NCBI GenBank assembly: GCA_032768795.1
Contig: CP136492.1
Span: 2,604,001 to 2,668,000, forward strand
Origin: Tremella fuciformis
Taxonomy: Eukaryota > Basidiomycota > Tremellomycetes > Tremellales > Tremellaceae
Direction: 5' to 3'
Length of the DNA: 64,000 bases
A program made the position numbers and the translations under genes. The notes under the pieces were generated by a model. It was not told the origin of the DNA. It did no database searches and was given only the letters and a program-made list of their open reading frames with translations. This document shows positions 37,088 through 46,390 of this stretch, one piece after another. The first letter of the stretch is position 1; each line of letters starts with the position of its first letter.

Positions 37088-38335
37088 ATGATAGAGCTTG
37101 TCCCATGAACGAAGAAGAGCCACAAGGTTTTTCACTGACCTATGAGCAAGCCGCAGTCATCTTGGCATTCACACGATACATTCCGACAAGACACCCACCC
37201 TGGAGGGCAATCTCACGATTGGTGCGGACGGCAAGGAAGATTGCACTCATATCGCAGCTGCCTGGCGAACAAGATGGGTCTGCGCGGAATGTTTCGCGTT
37301 AATCTGAGGGAAGAAAGCGCAGCAGACTGGCCGCCATATCTCTCAACGTATCCTCTGGGGCTGTATAGGACAGATCTAAAACCCGCGTTGCCTTGTCGCC
37401 AGGGAAGACGTTGCACTTATCCTGCGCGGCTTGGATCGCCTCCTTGACGTCGTCGATCGAATGTTGCGGTCCGACCGATAAAGATGGATTTGCGTCGTGT
37501 GCCGCCTGAGGGTCAGGAATTGATGATTGAACTCGGAGGATCTGGCTCACTCGGTGATACTGATACGTTGTAAGGGATCCGTTACATGTTATGAACCGCT
37601 GTCCGGCAGCCTCAGGGACCAACAGCGCCAGTACGTGTGCTCGGGCACCTAAAGTCAGTGTGTGGACAACAGAGCCGTAACGCACAGTCTCGGACGTCGA
37701 CAAAGGAGAAAGCGGGCGATTGGAAGTCTTCGAGGGTGGTTCCCAGCTGACCATCTAGCCACTTGTAGAACGTAGCTGCTGATGAGCTTGGGATGACGAT
37801 CACTAGCGCTCACCGGTGGAAGTGTTGAGTTGCTCAGATCGGTCGCACTGATGGATGATGGGACCGAGCACGAGTGGGGGATTAATTGTCACTCCCTCCA
37901 GTTGCACCGGACTGTGTTTGACAGCATCCCAGAAGGCTTTTTCGGCTAGTGTCTTGCTGGCTGCTAATTAGCTAGCCCCAGGCCGGCCGCCAGTCGTACC
38001 TCGATATTGGTCTCGTCCGTCTGCGTCTTGTCCCGACGTCTCGCACATCTTGATGGAGTGTGCGTTCCAATCATCCTCGCAGAACCTGAGTATGTATAAG
38101 CGCACCGTCCAACTGCCCAAAAGACCCACCGATGCGGCATCGGGAGTGAGGTATCCAAGATCGCCGCGGTCGAGCTTGTGCACACCACCCTCTTCACCTT
38201 TGACCTGTGACATCAGCTGACCCATGGCGGAAATGATTGACCTGCCCCGACTTCAAGATTGATTCGAGCACACCCGTCGTCCCCTTGATAGCGGGCTCAA
38301 ATAGCTCTTCCAGCGTGGCGGCGTTGTTGTAGAAG

Positions 38336-38648
38336 TGTCAAGACCGGACGTAGGATAGTCCGCGTCGAGCTGGGAAGTCGAGGTTGCCTCGCAGGGAGTA
38401 TGCAATCGAGTAGGGTTACTAGAAGTAGACTGAGAGTACAAGAGATACATTCGACTAGAGATCTTCTCTACTCGAATGTCTACTATATGTATTCGAAAAC
38501 CGTTCAACTATACTAGACAGTCCGAGTGCCGCATTTAGCAGTTCGGCTACTTCACCCGGATGAGGCAAGTGGGCGGTTGGCTGAGTCAGGCCGTGTGGCA
38601 CTTGGCCTTGTCTCATTCCGCCACAGTCTCAGTGCCACAGTCCTGACA
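38336..38648 (-). repeat. 3' LTR of the chromovirus
   Basis: 313 bp with TGTCA...TGACA ends. It appears identical to the copy at 45442-45754. Confidence 0.95.
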
Positions 38649-38652
38649 GTCG

Positions 38653-38666
38653 CCCCCCTCTTCTTT
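38653..38666 (-). promoter_or_regulatory. Polypurine tract
   Basis: AAAGAAGAGGGGGG on the minus strand, four bases before the 3' LTR, the usual plus-strand primer of LTR retrotransposons. Confidence 0.7.
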
Positions 38667-38867
38667 GATGTCGACCCGACATCCTCGGTTGTTGACATCC
38701 TTTATTCGACGTTGCGTCCTTTGGCACTGTGTGTTCGGTTCGTTGAGGTAGATGCCACGCCTGTAAGCCCGAGAGACGCCGTTGTTTACCCCTTCATGCA
38801 AGTTGTTGTTCTGGTTGTTGTGTCCGGACTTCGTCTTTCTTGAGTCGTCTTTCGTACTGTTCTCATC

Positions 38868-40547
38868 ATGGTCGACGACGAGCTGGCCGGATTCAATGTT
38901 GAGCAGGGCATACAAGATGCCTACGATGAGGCGTACCTCGGTACGGCCTCGGCGGACGACTATCGAATTCAACTCCAGGCCGCTCGAGAGAACCTCGAAG
39001 CGCAGCCCGAAAATGCCATTTTCAAGTTCGAGGTCGACAAGCTGGTTGCTGCGGGGAAGGCGGCTTTACGTCGAGAAAGGGATAAATCCGTGAGTCGAAT
39101 GCCAGTAGACGAACTTCGAGTTAAGCTGTTAGGGTTCCTCTCCCGTAAAGTCGACTCCTGCTCGTGCTGAGTCGGTATTCCCGCCTATTCAATCGCCTTT
39201 CAAGGCTCCCCTTGGTCCCATCGGTCGTCTCTCACCCAAGAAACACATCTTGGATCCCTCTCCTATCTCTCGTCAACCACCCTTCGGCTCGAGCAGCATT
39301 CCCGAGACACCGGCTAGTCAAAAGGGTCATGCTCATCGCCCTTTGGGCTTCCCTAAGGCCGCATCTCCGCCTGCCAAAGTCGTGTCTTCGGCTACTGAGG
39401 TCGGTCTGAGCGACTTGTTCGGCTCGGCCCCCGACTCGAGCCCGGGTCAGCCGATCCCTACTCCTTCGCCGACCAAGGCAGGTCGAACTCCTAGTGGGGT
39501 GTTCCCGAGGGTTGAAGGCGAAGAGTTGGTGGTCAAGCGTCTGAATCGCGTGTATCGGTACCCGCTGAAAGAACCGGAGGTCGTTGGACACGACGACTCG
39601 AGGATCGAGTCCTTCTACTCGTGGGTCGAGTCGTATATTTCGACTCGTACTGGCGACACCGCGGATACCGGGTCGAACATCCTCGAAGCGCTCGACTCCG
39701 GCTCGTGGGGCGTCCTGATGGGGGCGGAGCGTTGTGCAGCCTGTGTGTCCCATAATCGCCCTCCCATGTCGGGCTACTCGGGTCTACTCTGCGTCTGCCC
39801 GGTTGTGGAGGTCGATGGTAGGCGGTATGTGGCGCAGAAGTACGTTTTCGACTTACCGTACTCGATTTTCGCTGACGTATAGGTGTCTTGGGTGTATGCT
39901 CAAGTCGAAACACTGCACCCTTTCGCCCAACACCGCTCTTGGGCCCCGAGCTCAACTCGTCCTCCCTGCCGACGAGGTCGTTCGTCGTAAGGGTGTTATC
40001 GCAGGGATTCACCGCCAGGCGACAGCTCTACTTGCAGACGCGAAACCCGGTCTGGCCCGTAATGCTATCTTGGAGATCTATAGAATCAATTACTCCGAAT
40101 ATCAGGTAAGTGTAGTCGGATTTCGTCTTGGTCTTGTCGAGATCTGACTTGCAGCATTTGAACCGGACTGCATTCCGCGGCGAGTCTCAAGTCGCTCTGC
40201 TAGACTCGGGTGATCCTCCGTTGGTGTCTACACTCGACTGGGGCTCTTTGGACGACGCGATGGCCGAAGGCGCTGAGGAGGGGGTTGCGGGTCCCTCGGT
40301 GGTCGGTGGGGGTGGTTTGAAGCGGCTATTGGAGGACTCGCCCGCGCCCTCCATTCACTCGTCTCCCGACCGGCACCACTCGGTTACTCGACTTCTGTCT
40401 GCCCGAGCTGAGTCCCTCGAGTCGGAATCCGACATCCCGCACCGCACGACCCGACTGCAGACCAAGGAGAAGACTGCCAGTGAGGCGAAGGCGCCACAGC
40501 GCGCCGCGCTTGGCGCCCTCAAGACGAAGCGCGGCCGCCGCAAGTGA
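38868..40547 (+). CDS. Spliced antisense gene carried by the chromovirus, unknown function
   Basis: I do not recognise this protein. Four exons (38868-39089, 39133-39839, 39883-40105, 40155-40547) with introns of 43, 43 and 49 nt sum to 515 codons including the stop, each junction keeping phase. Residues 1-74 are acidic and helical in character. Residues 75-200 are Ser/Pro-rich. A cysteine-rich core at 275-321 has Cys275, 278, 294, 296, 311, 314 and 321, suggestive of a zinc-binding fold. The C-terminus is low-complexity and ends in a basic tail, KTKRGRRK, that could be a nuclear signal. It runs opposite to gag-pol, its stop 32 bp from the pol stop, and its upstream region is the 220 bp next to the 3' LTR. 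Its TCGA-rich base usage matches the rest of the element, so it is probably not a recently captured host gene. Confidence 0.8.
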
Positions 40548-40579
40548 TTGTAGTCCAGGTTGTATTTTATGCAGAGACC

Positions 40580-43500
40580 TCATGCCGACTCCGTTCTCCA
40601 GCGCGGGGCGCGCCTTATGCGTTTCGCATCGGATACTAGGGATTCGACTTGGCTGTCCTCGATGCCCTTCATCCACGACTCGAACCGCGGGTCCCCCTTT
40701 AGAGAGTCTGTTGGTTGCCAGGTCGGTTGTTGGTACCCCTTCCATTTCACAAGGACTTGGTCCTCGAGTTGTCTTGCCTTACCCCGGGATCGTCGAGCTC
40801 GTTTCAGTACCCCTTCGACTTCGTAAAGCTCCTCCTCGCTAGTGTGTGGGGCTGGTGGCGGAGCGACCAGCGCGGGTTGCGCTTCGACTCGAGCCCCACG
40901 AACGTGCGACAAGAGCTCTACGTTGAAGACTGGGTGAACTCGATTGGCGACCAATTCCGGAGGCAGGTCCAGTTTATATGCGTTCTCGTTTATCCTTTCT
41001 AGTATGGAGTACGGTCCTACGTGACGGTGGTCGAATTTCCTAGTCGGACGGAGCGTGCGCAAGTTCTTGCCATTTAGCCAGACTTTGTCCCCTACTTGGA
41101 AGTCCGGTGTACGTCGACGCTTATCATATTGCTTCTTCCACCCTTCTTGGGCTCTGAGCAAGTTCCCTCGTATTCGATGGTGCAGCTGTTCTAGCTGCTG
41201 AACCCGGTCGGCGGCTGCTGGAACTTGCAGGTCGGACAGGTCTCCTGGCGGATCGACTAGGGTCGTACGATATGCTCTCCCGGTGTAGGCCTCCAGGGGG
41301 CTCATACCCAGCGAGGCGTGGTGCGTGCTATTGTAGCAGAACTCCGCGTGCGGCAGTAGGGGCACCCAATTGTCTTGTTCGAGGTTCACATAGTTGCGTA
41401 GGTACTGTTCCAGCCACTGGTTCGTTCTCTCGGTTTGTCCGTCTGTTTGTGGGTGGTATGCTGTCGAGTAGCGCAGGTTGGTTCCTAGGCCTTGGCAGAA
41501 GGCTTTCCAGAATTTGGATACGAACAGACTCCCACGATCCGACACTATGCTGTCGGGTATGCCGAAACGAGTATATACTCTATCCGTGAAGATTTCGGAC
41601 ATTCCTTTAGCGGTGATCGACTTGTGACAGGGCGCGAATACTGCCATCTTCGAGAAGCGATCCACGACAACCATGATGGAGTCGTAGGTATTCGAGGTGG
41701 GCAGGTCGACTATGAAGTCCACAGACAGGTCTGCCCATGGTCGTAGTGGCGGTTCGAGCGGTCGAAGGAGGCCGTACGGTTTCTGTCTCGAGGGCTTGTT
41801 TCTTTGGCACTTCTCGCACTCCGCCGCAGATTTCTCTACATCCGTCTTGATGTTTGGCCACCACCAGTGTTGCCTAATTGCCTGATAAGTCTTTCGGGGT
41901 CCAGGGTGACCGGCCGAGACTATATCATGATGTGCCTCGATGACCTCTGTCCGAGACTTCGAGGGACAGTAGTATGCTTTCGAGTGTCTATAGTATCCTT
42001 GCGTGTCTTGGGTTACTTTTCCGTCCGCGATCAATGATCCTAGCTCGTCGTCCCCTTCGTACAAGTCGGACGGCGTCTTGCCCAGCAGCTGTACTTGTAG
42101 GGAGAGTAGCAACTGTTCTGAGGACAGGAGCGGTCGGAAATTGTGTCCGTTGAGTTCCTGAGACAGGCTCGTGGCTGTCGAGTCGGTGGGGAGGTAATCC
42201 GGTCTTCGACTGAGGGCGTCCGGTTTAGTACTTTGCTTCCCCGAACGATAGGAGATCTCGAAGTTGAAGTCTGCCATCATCTCTGCCCATCGTGCCTGTC
42301 GTCGGGTCAGTTGCTTGGTTGACAAGAAGGTTTCCAGGCTGCGGTGGTCGGTGAGCACTTGTGTCCGGTGTCGGGCACCTTCCAGGTAGTGTCGCCATTC
42401 CTTGAAAGCGTACACGATTGCCAAGAATTCCTTGTCGTGTATCGGGTAGTTCAACTCGGCTGGCGACATGACTCGACTCGAATATGCGACTGGGCGCAGC
42501 CCATTCTCCCCGTCTTTCTGGGATATGACTGCCCCGATCGCGAAATCGGACGCGTCGGTCTCTACCACGCATTCCTGGTCTGGGTCATAGTGTTTCAGGA
42601 CGGGTCCGGTCGTCATTTTCGTCTTGAGCAGGTCGAACGCCGCCTGGTGCGGTTCCGACCAGGAGAACGGGGTCGACTTCCGAGTGAGTTCGTGCAGTGG
42701 CTTAGCTACCTTGGCGAACCCTGCTATGAACCTTCGATAGAAGTTTGCAAAACCCAGGAAGGATTGGACTTCCTTGACGTTCCGAGGTGCTGGCCATGCC
42801 GACACCGCTCGCACCTTGTTCGGGTCCATCGATACGCCCTTCGGGTCGATGATGTAGCCCAGGAACTCTACGGAGTCGGTATGGAACTGGCACTTGTCGT
42901 GTTTTGCGAACAGTTCGAATTTCCGCAGTCGTTGTAGGACTTCTTTGACGTGCCTCTCGTGCTCGCTCCGTGACTTCGAGAAGATAAGTATGTCGTCCAG
43001 ATAGACTATGACGAAAATGTCCAGCACATCGCGGAATATGTGGTTCATCAAGTGTTGGAATGAGGCTGGGGCATTCGTGAGGCCGAATGGCATCACTCGG
43101 TACTCGAACAGCCCGAACCGAGTTCTGAATGCGGTTTTCCATTCTTCCCCGGCGGCGATCCGGAGGAGGTTGTACGCGCCACGTAGGTCTATTTTTGAGT
43201 AGATAGTGGCCGCACGGAGTTGGTCTAGTAGATCTCCGATCAACGGTAGGGGATAACGGTTCTTGACGGTTATGTTATTCAACTTGCGGTAGTCCACGCA
43301 GAGGCGTAAGGATCCGTCTTTCTTCTTTACGAATAAAATTGGCGAGGCCGCTGGCGACTCCGAAGGTACGATAAAGCCTTTCTTGAGGTTCGTATCCAAG
43401 TAGTCTCGGAGGGCCTCCTGTTCGGTCACGGACAGCGAGTAGATCGGGCCGAATGTCGGCTCAGCGCCGTCGAGTAGCGGGATGCGGTGGTCGAAAGGCC

Positions 43501-44225
43501 TATGAGGAGGTAGCTTGGTGGCCTCCGACTCCGAGAAGACATCCAGGAACTCGTGGTATTCCGTAGGTACCACTTCCTCCATCCGAGGTGGGTCCACGGA
43601 GATGGCTCGTAGGTAGATCGCCCCCTTGGGTTCGTCCGTAATCTGTTCGAATGCCTCGGCCGAGATGAGGGAGATTGCTTTTAGTTTTCCCGACTTGCCC
43701 TGGTGTGATCTCGAGGGAGGAGGTTGAATGGCCAGGTTATCCCAGTCGAGCGTTGGCTTGACTTCTTTGAAGAATGGCGCCCCAAGGATGATGGGGCCCA
43801 CATCTAGTCTGGCGACCAGAAATGTAGCTGTGTAAGGCTGGAACCCTTCCCCTAGCAAGAGGGTGAGGGTAACCTCTTGTTCGATAGCGCTGCGGGAGCC
43901 ATCCGCTAATCGTAGGGTCTGTTTGATTCTAGAAGGGCGCAATTCGAGTTTCGACTCGATGGCGTAGGTTTTCTCTATAAAGTTCCGGGAGGCCCCGGTG
44001 TCGAGCAGCGCTCGGGAGACTAGTGATTGTTTGTTTGCGATCGCGACAGGTATATGGAAAAGGTCTGGGGTATCAGGAATAGCTGGCGTCGAGATTGGGA
44101 GTGCGGCGAAGGTGGCGGTCACGCTGAGGCGTACCTCGCCGCCGCGGGGCTGGGGTACGCCAACTTGTTTTCCGAATCGTCTTTGTCGAATTTCGTATGA
44201 TCGAGGTTGGCGTTCGCATTCGGTG
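40580..44225 (-). CDS. pol: Pol polyprotein of the chromovirus
   Basis: Open frame of at least 1,180 codons with no ATG start; it overlaps the end of gag by about 100 nt in the -1 frame and is numbered here from 44122. Protease has ALLDTGAS at residues 39-46. Reverse transcriptase spans about 250-430 with YLDD at 374-377. RNase H spans about 515-640 with ETDASD. Integrase has a zinc-binding HHCC segment (about 732-772) and catalytic Asp802, Asp861 and Glu898, followed by a GPY module near 1035. A chromodomain lies at 1098-1150 (YEVEGVLKRAR to VLVKWKGY). All active-site motifs are present and there is no internal stop. Expression probably needs -1 frameshifting or an equivalent bypass. Confidence 0.95.
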
Positions 44226-45393
44226 CTTCGTGTCTAATACCATTGAGGCGGACTGCGTTCGCCCCCGATGCGGGGCTGTTTCGAGGAGCTCGCGTTTTCG
44301 GGGCCGTGGGGCAGTTGGCTACAATGTGATCCGGGCTCTCACAGTATAGACACAGGTTTTTGTCCATCCGTCGCTGTCTTTCGCTGGGCGAGATCCTACC
44401 CCTCGAGTGTCCGTCGTCCTTCCGATATCTCTGGTTGGTCGGGGGTCGAGAGGGCGGATTCGGGGATCGAACGTAGTCCCTCGAAGGTCTGTCGGCGCGG
44501 TCGCGAGAGTGAGTTGTCGCCGGCGTCTCGCCGAACCTTTTCGAGGTAGCTCGCTCCGGCTCGCGCTGTAGCAAGTTGTTGCGGACACTGTCCTGCTGTA
44601 CATTGAGACGAATCGCTACGTCCGCCAGCTCTTTTAGGGATCTGGGCTCGTGCTCGCGATTCGCTATGGCCAGGCGGATCTCGGGTCGCAGACCCGACTC
44701 GAACATGTCTCGTAGGCTACGGTCCTCATACTCCACATCGGCTGAGATCGCCAGGAATCGTGCATAGTATTCCGAGACCGTGCGGGTTTGCGACAGTTTC
44801 TTGAGTCGCTGAACCGCAATTCGGTGTCTATCCGGGTCGCCGAACATGTCCTGTAACTCGGAAATGAAATGGTCCAAGTCGGAGCAAAAAAGGGGTTGTT
44901 CGATTTTCGGCCTGTTGAAGTACGGTTCCCACCAACGAAGGGCATTTCCCCGTAGGTAGGATGCCGCCCAAATGACTTGCCTCCGCGAGTCCAGGCCACC
45001 GCCTTGCATGCTAAGGTACATTCGTACCTGGGTAATGTATTGCGGTAGCTTATCGCGGTCACCGTGATATTCATCTGGGGGGTTCACCTTGAAGGATCTC
45101 GTCGCGTTCGAAATCCTCTGAGCGGACTCGAGCGGCGAGTGGTCGTGGTCGAGATCCGTGTCCGTGATCTCTTCCAGGGGTGTACCTTGCGCGGCTCCCG
45201 TGTGATGAGTGGTTGCCGGGGTGGCCCGTTCGGCCAATGCGAGACGGGCGGCCGCTAGGGCCGAGTCGCTCTGCTCCTTGGCTTGGCGAAGCTCGAGTAT
45301 CTGACGTCGGAGTTCCTCAACCTCCGTAGGAGTGTCGAGGTCCTCCGAGTCCGGGTCGACATGCGACCGTAGTTGGCGAGTGGAAGCACTCAT
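44119..45393 (-). CDS. gag: Gag protein of the chromovirus
   Basis: About 424 residues from the ATG at 45393 (MSASTRQLRS), 49 nt after the LTR. A coiled-coil-like segment near residues 25-55 (VEELRRQILELRQ) precedes the Ty3 gag capsid domain (YLRGNALRWWEPYF, FGDPDRHRIAVQRLKKLSQ). The C-terminal part is basic and contains a CX2CX4HX4C zinc knuckle, CLYCESPDHIVANC. An in-frame codon at 45447 lies within the LTR and is not a likely start. It forms the virus-like particle that packages the element RNA. Confidence 0.92.
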   Translation of the reverse strand: MSASTRQLRSHVDPDSEDLDTPTEVEELRRQILELRQAKEQSDSALAAARLALAERATPATTHHTGAAQGTPLEEITDTDLDHDHSPLESAQRISNATRSFKVNPPDEYHGDRDKLPQYITQVRMYLSMQGGGLDSRRQVIWAASYLRGNALRWWEPYFNRPKIEQPLFCSDLDHFISELQDMFGDPDRHRIAVQRLKKLSQTRTVSEYYARFLAISADVEYEDRSLRDMFESGLRPEIRLAIANREHEPRSLKELADVAIRLNVQQDSVRNNLLQREPERATSKRFGETPATTHSRDRADRPSRDYVRSPNPPSRPPTNQRYRKDDGHSRGRISPSERQRRMDKNLCLYCESPDHIVANCPTAPKTRAPRNSPASGANAVRLNGIRHEAPNANANLDHTKFDKDDSENKLAYPSPAAARYASA

Positions 45394-45424
45394 GTTCCTC
45401 GACTTGCAATACTCAGTGCGAGTA

Positions 45425-45439
45425 TAGTCGAATGTATCT
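45425..45439 (-). promoter_or_regulatory. Self-priming primer-binding site
   Basis: Two bases after the 5' LTR, the minus strand reads AGATACATTCGACTA, a perfect 15-nt complement of the LTR segment at 45549-45563. No tRNA 3'-end complement starting TGG is present at this position. The arrangement resembles Tf1, whose mRNA 5' end primes its own reverse transcription. Confidence 0.75.
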
Positions 45440-45441
45440 AA

Positions 45442-45754
45442 TGTCAAGACCGGACGTAGGATAGTCCGCGTCGAGCTGGGAAGTCGAGGTTGCCTCGCAG
45501 GGAGTATGCAATCGAGTAGGGTTACTAGAAGTAGACTGAGAGTACAAGAGATACATTCGACTAGAGATCTTCTCTACTCGAATGTCTACTATATGTATTC
45601 GAAAACCGTTCAACTATACTAGACAGTCCGAGTGCCGCATTTAGCAGTTCGGCTACTTCACCCGGATGAGGCAAGTGGGCGGTTGGCTGAGTCAGGCCGT
45701 GTGGCACTTGGCCTTGTCTCATTCCGCCACAGTCTCAGTGCCACAGTCCTGACA
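45442..45754 (-). repeat. 5' LTR of the chromovirus
   Basis: 313 bp. On the minus strand a TATA-like catatag near 45594 lies about 30 bp before TAGTCGAATGTATCT (45563-45549), a plausible transcription start and self-primer. Confidence 0.93.
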
Positions 45755-46390
45755 AGAAGGGACTGACGTCAATGACGGCCCCTTCCGGCGACTTGCCTAG
45801 CGGTATGTATCACCCCTTCAACGTCCCGGACCGCAAGGTCGAAAGCCCCGGTCTGTCATCAGCCCCTTCCTGAGACCTTCACTTCGCTGACACTGGCGAT
45901 ATTCTCAACAATAACGTATTCAAAGAGTTTGTTGGCGAACAATTCACTCAGATACTCGCCCTTCCCCGGTGTCCTGACAGTTGCCCTGACGCGCATGCCA
46001 TGTTCGAGGAGTGTCTTGACAACATGTCTAGCATTTAGCACTGCCAGAGCCGTGGTACTTACGCAGCGATGAAGCCTGATGCACCGGTGACGAGCACAAG
46101 ATCGCCTTTGTTCAGCGCTGGCATGTTTGAGGGCATGGGCCGCATCATACTGCCCTCCTGCTGATACATATAAACATTTGGCCAGGGTGGAGGGCTTCGA
46201 TGCCTACGGCAAGTGGCAGTACGGGCAAGGAGTCAAACGACCGTTCCTTTCTCCCCGCCCAGTCATTCGATGGCTTTAGTAATGCAAAGAGGCGAATCTG
46301 AGATCCGCAAGGTTAAGGCGCGTACGTGGCACATCTCTCCAAGGCCCCTGCTCTTGGCGGACATGGCTCTACTGACTTAAAGGACGTGCA

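Follow-up and report, generated by a model that had tools for sequence, protein, structure and literature searches.

A complete Ty3-type LTR retrotransposon lies within the 64,000-nucleotide stretch of DNA analyzed here, referred to as the window, and the space between its pol gene and its 3' LTR is occupied, on the opposite strand, by a long frame that is read through three introns. The question raised by this locus is whether the frame is a gene of the element and, if so, what its product could do there. Window genes near the element encode Fungal_trans and Zn_clus domains (Pfam), which mark the DNA as fungal, and copies and relatives of the element were sought in the corresponding genome of 28.1 Mb in 11 contigs. 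The features of the element and of the antisense gene are collected in Table 1. Above their Pfam cut-offs, the pol product matches RVT_1, RT_RNaseH, Integrase_H2C2, SH3_Tf2-1 and rve; the protease models score just under their cut-offs, and the C-terminal chromodomain (Chromo, E 0.0011) reaches 19.3 bits, below the 25.1-bit cut-off. Among the protein-database matches listed for gag, two proteins of 344 and 327 aa are 33% identical to it. Self-priming of the element, as is known for Tf1, is predicted from the complementarity between the primer-binding site and the LTR. The LTR stretch involved in this pairing is located shortly after a TATA-like motif.

Table 1. Coordinates, in the window, of the retrotransposon and of the gene antisense to gag-pol
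Feature	Position	Strand	Basis
Complete Ty3-type LTR retrotransposon	38336..45754	-	LTR pair, copy boundaries, Pfam domains in pol
Target-site duplication AGAAG, left copy	38331..38335	.	direct reading
3' LTR, 313 bp, TG..CA	38336..38648	-	identical to 45442-45754
Polypurine tract adjoining the 3' LTR	38653..38666	-	sequence
Antisense exon 1, residues 1-74	38868..39089	+	gene model, dN/dS
Antisense intron 1, GTGAGT..TGTTAG	39090..39132	+	sequence
Antisense exon 2, residues 75-309 and part of 310	39133..39839	+	gene model, six-frame control
Cysteine cluster codons C275-C321, CxxC..CxC..CxxCx6C, intron 2 within	39733..39916	+	copy alignment
Antisense intron 2, GTACGT..CTGAC..TATAG	39840..39882	+	sequence
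Antisense exon 3	39883..40105	+	gene model, six-frame control
Antisense intron 3, GTAAGT..CTGAC..TGCAG	40106..40154	+	sequence
Antisense exon 4 with stop; least constrained exon	40155..40547	+	gene model, dN/dS
Basic C-terminal tail KTKRGRRK	40521..40544	+	same in 14 intact copies
pol open frame, 1217 codons	40580..44233	-	overlaps gag stop, different frame
gag, 424 aa, CCHC knuckle CLYCESPDHIVANC	44119..45393	-	open frame; Pfam Retrotrans_gag
Primer-binding site	45425..45439	-	15 nt complementary to own LTR 45549-45563
5' LTR, 313 bp	45442..45754	-	identical to 3' LTR
Target-site duplication AGAAG, right copy	45755..45759	.	direct reading

The antisense gene extends over 38868-40547 of the plus strand, between the pol stop (40580) and the 3' LTR, and consists of four exons separated by three GT-AG introns of 43, 43 and 49 nt; it comprises 515 codons with the stop and encodes 514 residues. 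In coordinates, strand, introns and codon count the initial annotation of this DNA, made from the sequence alone, was accurate. An alternative acceptor of intron 1 at 39150 yields a 61 nt intron, keeps the frame and gives a product of 508 residues. Introns 2 and 3 contain a branch-like CTGAC motif that ends 6 nt from the intron end (CTGAT in intron 2 of copy L045), and for intron 1 a CTAAG is found at the branch position in three diverged copies and is absent from the window copy. The antisense frame and pol are convergent, with 32 nt between the end of the frame and the pol stop, and the antisense ATG is located 219 nt inside the 3' LTR boundary. The N-terminus of the product is acidic and its middle part Ser/Pro-rich; a cysteine cluster and a basic tail are present as previously described, and the described similarity in base usage to gag-pol is also borne out by GC3 (0.645 in the antisense gene, 0.645 in pol and 0.664 in gag). 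An env-like gene on the sense strand was considered and rejected, every minus-strand frame of the window copy having stops within each exon; three shorter sense ORFs of the interval (173, 159 and 119 aa) have dN/dS of 1.0-7.0 and show no constraint, and a fourth, of 139 aa, overlaps the pol end.

The length of the frame by itself is a weak argument for an antisense gene. When the best three GT-AG introns are chosen freely, the region yields 518 codons, compared with 322 on the opposite strand in the identical search and with a mean of 278 and a maximum of 453 in 100 Markov sequences, and by frame length it ranks 9th when the window is cut into 66 tile-strands of the same length, a set in which real genes are frequent. 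The window has more intron-like sites than expected, the two strands holding 25 and 24 vs 10-18 in 10 Markov sequences, a comparison of site counts; many of the sites are 43-52 nt long. The earlier argument that phase kept through three introns excludes chance is therefore not decisive, because random sequences already reach the above mean and only a 9th rank is attained here. The same ease with which long frames arise from free introns is what could speak for a chance frame or an artefact of the gene model; this reading is refuted by dN/dS, by the six-frame control and by the intact frames of other copies, which leaves it a negligible probability. The decisive evidence is judged to be comparative, namely a dN/dS of 0.16, the six-frame control, frames intact in 14 of 17 copies, and retention of the splice sites.

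Selection on the antisense protein was estimated from three diverged copies, two of which, L044 and L052, are close relatives (dS 0.026). Compared with L045, the most diverged copy, the antisense gene has dN 0.071 and dS 0.44, that is, dN/dS 0.161, and the ratio is 0.156 against L052 and 0.164 against L044, with dS over the three copies ranging from 0.17 to 0.44; a dN/dS near 1 among copies, which had been named beforehand as a reason to discard the gene, is thus far from what is found. The corresponding values against L045 are 0.085 for gag (dS 0.37) and 0.072 for pol (dS 0.44). Since dS is the same for the antisense gene and pol and dN/dS is 0.161 vs 0.072-0.085, the antisense gene has belonged to the element for as long as pol and is about half as strictly kept. 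Synonymous and nonsynonymous changes against L045 differ at Fisher p = 1.6e-34, and the changes are distributed over the three codon positions as 50, 27 and 132 (chi-square p = 1e-19). Within 14 young copies, two of them broken, the ratio of nonsynonymous to synonymous changes is 17:30 vs 72:124 fixed against L045, that is, there is no difference. The LTRs are 5.4% and the introns 7-16% divergent from those of L045, compared with the exon dS of 0.44; constraint, exchange between lineages or mutation bias are candidate readings of this low divergence.

In the six-frame control against L045, the claimed frame alone is both low in dN/dS and stop-free in all four exons, and against L052 the same is observed for exons 1-3; the complementary minus frame is also low in dN/dS but has stops. 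By exon, dN/dS against L045 is 0.13, 0.16, 0.07 and 0.26 for exons 1 to 4. Exon 4 (40155-40544) gives 1.10 on few changes in the comparison with L052, where it is unconstrained yet stop-free; the discrepancy with L045 could mean that selection on the tail has relaxed or is shifting. By this high ratio, the C-terminal part of the antisense protein is the loosest in constraint.

Among the best candidates of the whole-genome search, 17 copies of the antisense region, including that of the window, and two distant relics were found. A perfect 5-bp duplication flanks nine of the 12 copies in which both LTRs were read, the exceptions being L045, L046 and L048. Of the 17 copies, 14 have an intact spliced frame, so that the initial annotation's proposed check of the frame in sister copies came out in its favor; of the three others, L044 is broken by an insertion of 20 nt, L046 by a deletion of 206 nt and L047 by an insertion of 440 nt. 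The 440-nt insertion, in exon 2, is rich in GTCGAGG repeats and is possibly another mobile element. Introns 2 and 3 retain GT-AG in 17 of 17 copies and intron 1 in 16 of 17, where L046 carries a deletion, and all seven cysteine codons of the cluster are kept, by aligned column, in all 17. A 7-nt insertion within intron 1 of L045, L052 and the broken L044 extends the intron to 50 nt, and exon 4 of L045 has a 3-nt deletion; these indels, as they occur in intact copies, fit the splicing model. Among the pol matches listed, the antisense gene adjoins all 14 that cover the full C-terminal 739-residue query at an identity of at least 93%, is intact beside 12 of these 14, and is unbroken wherever pol keeps its full 1217-codon frame (11 copies). 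This presence, the intact copies and the low dN/dS agree with the earlier proposal that the gene is an established part of the element. Judged from these comparisons, the frame is almost certainly a real, spliced gene maintained by selection opposite gag-pol.

Relic L055 retains the C-terminal third of the antisense gene, interrupted by stops and 39-53% identical. Where intron 3 would lie it has an intron-like insert that contains CTGAC and AG, and its tail reads KTRRARWK; the pol end is present in the convergent order of the window element. These data bear on the possibility that a host gene was recently captured and is carried as a passenger. The gene is spliced as host genes are, but every relative among the best genome matches is a copy, a relic or an antisense frame of another element, its dS equals that of pol, and the arrangement in L055 is identical, so that capture is most improbable. 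At G000:C10:743182-743869, in L056, a piece of the antisense gene has an isolated fragment of a Piwi domain as a neighbor, 320 nt away and in the same orientation.

Antisense frames with a cysteine cluster just past pol also occur in two other Ty3 families of the genome, with pol 47% identical. The family names used here, F3, F5 and F7, denote groupings by pol match and frame length, and the antisense frames were placed relative to the pol match. When the cysteine domain alone was searched at a permissive threshold, two further places were obtained (30% identity, E 0.011), each on the antisense strand and 1.36 kb beyond an F3 pol match; in F3 (pol 47% identical), a 270-nt piece of L059 codes for a CxxCx6C..CxxCx6C domain. 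Comparison with shuffled sequences in which the cysteines were fixed, over 21 pairs in all, gave a score of 82 for the F3 domain against the present gene, reached by none of 500 shuffles (maximum 58), and a score of 49 for F5 domain A, reached by nine of 500; F5 domain A and the F3 domain scored 63, reached by 20 of 500. Against the present gene, scores of 28 and 26 were obtained for two host zinc clusters, values reached by 371 and 388 of 500 shuffles, and one of them scored 43 against F3 (51 of 500). Since the F3 score is reached by no shuffle and that of F5 by nine, the F3 antisense domain is related to the present gene by more than its cysteines, and F5 domain A is so only weakly.

In the one F5 region that was read (L057, G000:C5:991650-994450, minus strand), two antisense cysteine-cluster frames, A and B, follow pol. 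Frame A has two likely introns, and frame B is preceded, ~45 nt before its ATG, by a TATA-like run, TATATATAT. Among the pol matches listed, frame B is common to F5 (two of two pol copies) and F3 (three of four pol copies), at ~40%, with a weak match in F7 (G000:C10:351133-351321, E 0.014), and in these three families it is always antisense and ~350-380 nt past the pol match. The cysteine-fixed shuffle comparison detected no relation between frame B and the present gene. Frame B of L058 and L057 has a faint match to DUF3716 (E 0.05 and 0.19), below the Pfam cut-off, and the F3 domain has weak PDB echoes in an ethanol regulon factor (E 0.15) and GAL4 (E 0.38), with cytochrome c close behind (E 0.43-1.2); Zn_clus was not matched above the Pfam cut-off by any of the F3 and F5 antisense frames. 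Beside the other pol families listed, no antisense relative was found by sequence matching alone. Weak matches to F5 frame B (E 1e-5 and 0.01) and to frame A (E 7e-4) are located at G000:C3:10125-10322, C9:761239-761373 and C8:1360069-1360476. An N-terminal piece of F5 frame A (87%, in a 244-codon open frame) is found at G000:C11:161093-161296, ~4 kb upstream of pol and on the same strand, and so outside the usual place.

The protein itself has no recognizable family. No match at E up to 10 was obtained in the protein database for the full antisense protein (best 7994 candidates by shared words) or for exon 2 alone (best 467 candidates), nor was there a Pfam match at E up to 5 or a match of a three-sequence profile of the protein in the PDB sequences; within these searches, the earlier statement that the product belongs to no known family is upheld. 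The structure predicted for exon 2 alone is unusable (mean pLDDT 45.5). The cysteine pairs CxxCx6C of the F3 and F5 antisense frames resemble the Zn2Cys6 cluster (PF00172), whereas in the present gene the first half has no third cysteine and a CxC separates the two halves; Zn_clus (PF00172) is not matched by it, and its cysteine spacing fits neither this nor any other Pfam model. 

Antisense additional ORFs between pol and the 3' LTR are designated aORF-3R and include maize Grande gene23 and the ORFs of rice RIRE2, Silene Retand and PvRetro13 (PMC7264820). The present gene resembles them in place and orientation, and, by the account given there, in its presence in most copies (14 of 14 listed pol matches; 12 of 14 and 14 of 17 intact), in a conservation comparable to that of gag-pol (here, dN/dS 0.16 vs 0.072-0.085) and in the lack of clear database relatives; in contrast, those are plant elements (PMC7264820), and their genes are not known to contain introns. 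Retand, a non-chromovirus, has an antisense gene with the TRP28 domain (PMC11963269), and this domain (PF04195) is absent from the present protein (Pfam, E up to 5). Nuclear localization is reported for Grande gene23, and DNA binding is predicted for Retand TRP28 (PMC7264820, PMC11963269). Spliced antisense genes are known from HTLV (PMC3185765, PMC1459196), where, as predicted for the present element, a spliced antisense message is made from an LTR element, that of HBZ (HTLV-1) and APH-2 (HTLV-2) encoding a regulator (PMC3185765); the HBZ/APH-2 antisense product is described as nuclear (PMC11963269). HBZ differs in being a retroviral bZIP protein with its ATG in the 3' LTR, whereas no bZIP domain is found in the present protein (Pfam) and its ATG lies inside the LTR boundary.

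The initial annotation knew antisense ORFs from plant elements and no spliced one from a fungal chromovirus. The second part of this statement stands, since searches of the open-licence PMC literature found none described for any fungal LTR element; to the plant precedents a fungal antisense gene is to be added, brtn, for which Zhao et al. 2011 is said to be the original paper. This gene belongs to Boty (BcGypsy1) of Botrytis cinerea (PMC7264820, PMC8365987, PMC4227169), which, like the present element, is a fungal Ty3 element with an extra antisense gene; the gag-pol of Boty has a chromodomain (PMC4227169, PMC8365987). An additional ORF of unknown function is also marked in a survey of fungal Ty3 elements (PMC2864245). 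The four-exon, selection-maintained form of the gene and the depth of its relatives within one genome look new.

The conserved cysteine cluster and the basic tail fit a nuclear zinc-binding regulator, zinc binding, nuclear entry and target all being presumed, and that the antisense protein acts as a nuclear regulator of the element is a possible reading, held at somewhat less than even confidence. Taken as a whole, the best explanation, a selected spliced accessory gene encoding such a zinc-binding regulator, is given an even chance. The host polymerase would transcribe the antisense gene from the integrated DNA copy, starting in the 3' LTR or in the 219 nt between the LTR and the ATG, and the host would splice the message. 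The RNA that is reverse transcribed would be the other strand, on which the plus-strand introns are no introns; because the genomic RNA is the minus strand, from which these introns are not removed, they would survive retrotransposition, and DNA would be the sole source of the protein, by way of an antisense transcript of its own. The product would then bind nucleic acid or chromatin and tune the transcription or copy number of the element, by analogy with the presumed role of such proteins in other LTR elements. Since the two stop codons are 32 nt apart, transcription from both ends would collide, and this convergence may add a switch between genomic RNA and antisense message; an effect of double-stranded RNA may add to that of the protein.

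The cysteine cluster and the basic tail, being conserved, could also be expected of a protein that acts in transposition itself, as a nuclear import or integration factor or as a chaperone of the Gag particle, rather than as a regulator of transcription, and the intactness of the antisense gene in all listed copies with a full pol frame points in the same direction. A spliced antisense message would, however, decouple the supply of such a protein from that of gag-pol, and no Pfam match to a Gag, integrase or env family was found, so that this role is considered unlikely. The genome encodes Piwi and RNA-dependent RNA polymerase domains that score above the cut-off (Pfam), and a convergent gene could produce double-stranded RNA that the element must survive; a protein countering host silencing, by RNAi or at the chromatin level, would suit these circumstances but has no similarity to a known family to recommend it, and is regarded as quite improbable. 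The same RNAi domains, and introns and LTRs that diverge less than synonymous sites, would accord with an antisense RNA being functional in place of the protein, limiting copy number through double-stranded RNA or interference. Codon-level selection is unexpected for a non-coding RNA, which could add to the protein and not replace it, and this alternative is very unlikely. The earlier suggestion of antisense RNA against pol does not suit the position of the gene: with 32 nt left between the end of the frame and the pol stop, the coding part can pair only with untranslated 3' sequence of the genomic RNA, and antisense RNA would reach pol only through a longer 3' end of the message.

Beyond the nuclear regulator of this one element, it is tentatively proposed, and with more doubt than confidence, that a spliced antisense cysteine-cluster module past pol is ancient and common to several fungal Ty3 chromovirus families, its introns serving as a strand-asymmetric device through which the protein would signal integrated copies and act back on the element. 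If this proposal is true, the protein would be made from integrated DNA through host splicing only and never from the genomic RNA. Extra antisense genes have long been recorded in LTR elements with their function unexplained; the introns, codon-level selection, many intact copies and relatives of the present gene make this function approachable by comparison and expression. The gene also suggests that a retroelement can keep introns in the long term if the gene that contains them sits opposite the strand of the genomic RNA.
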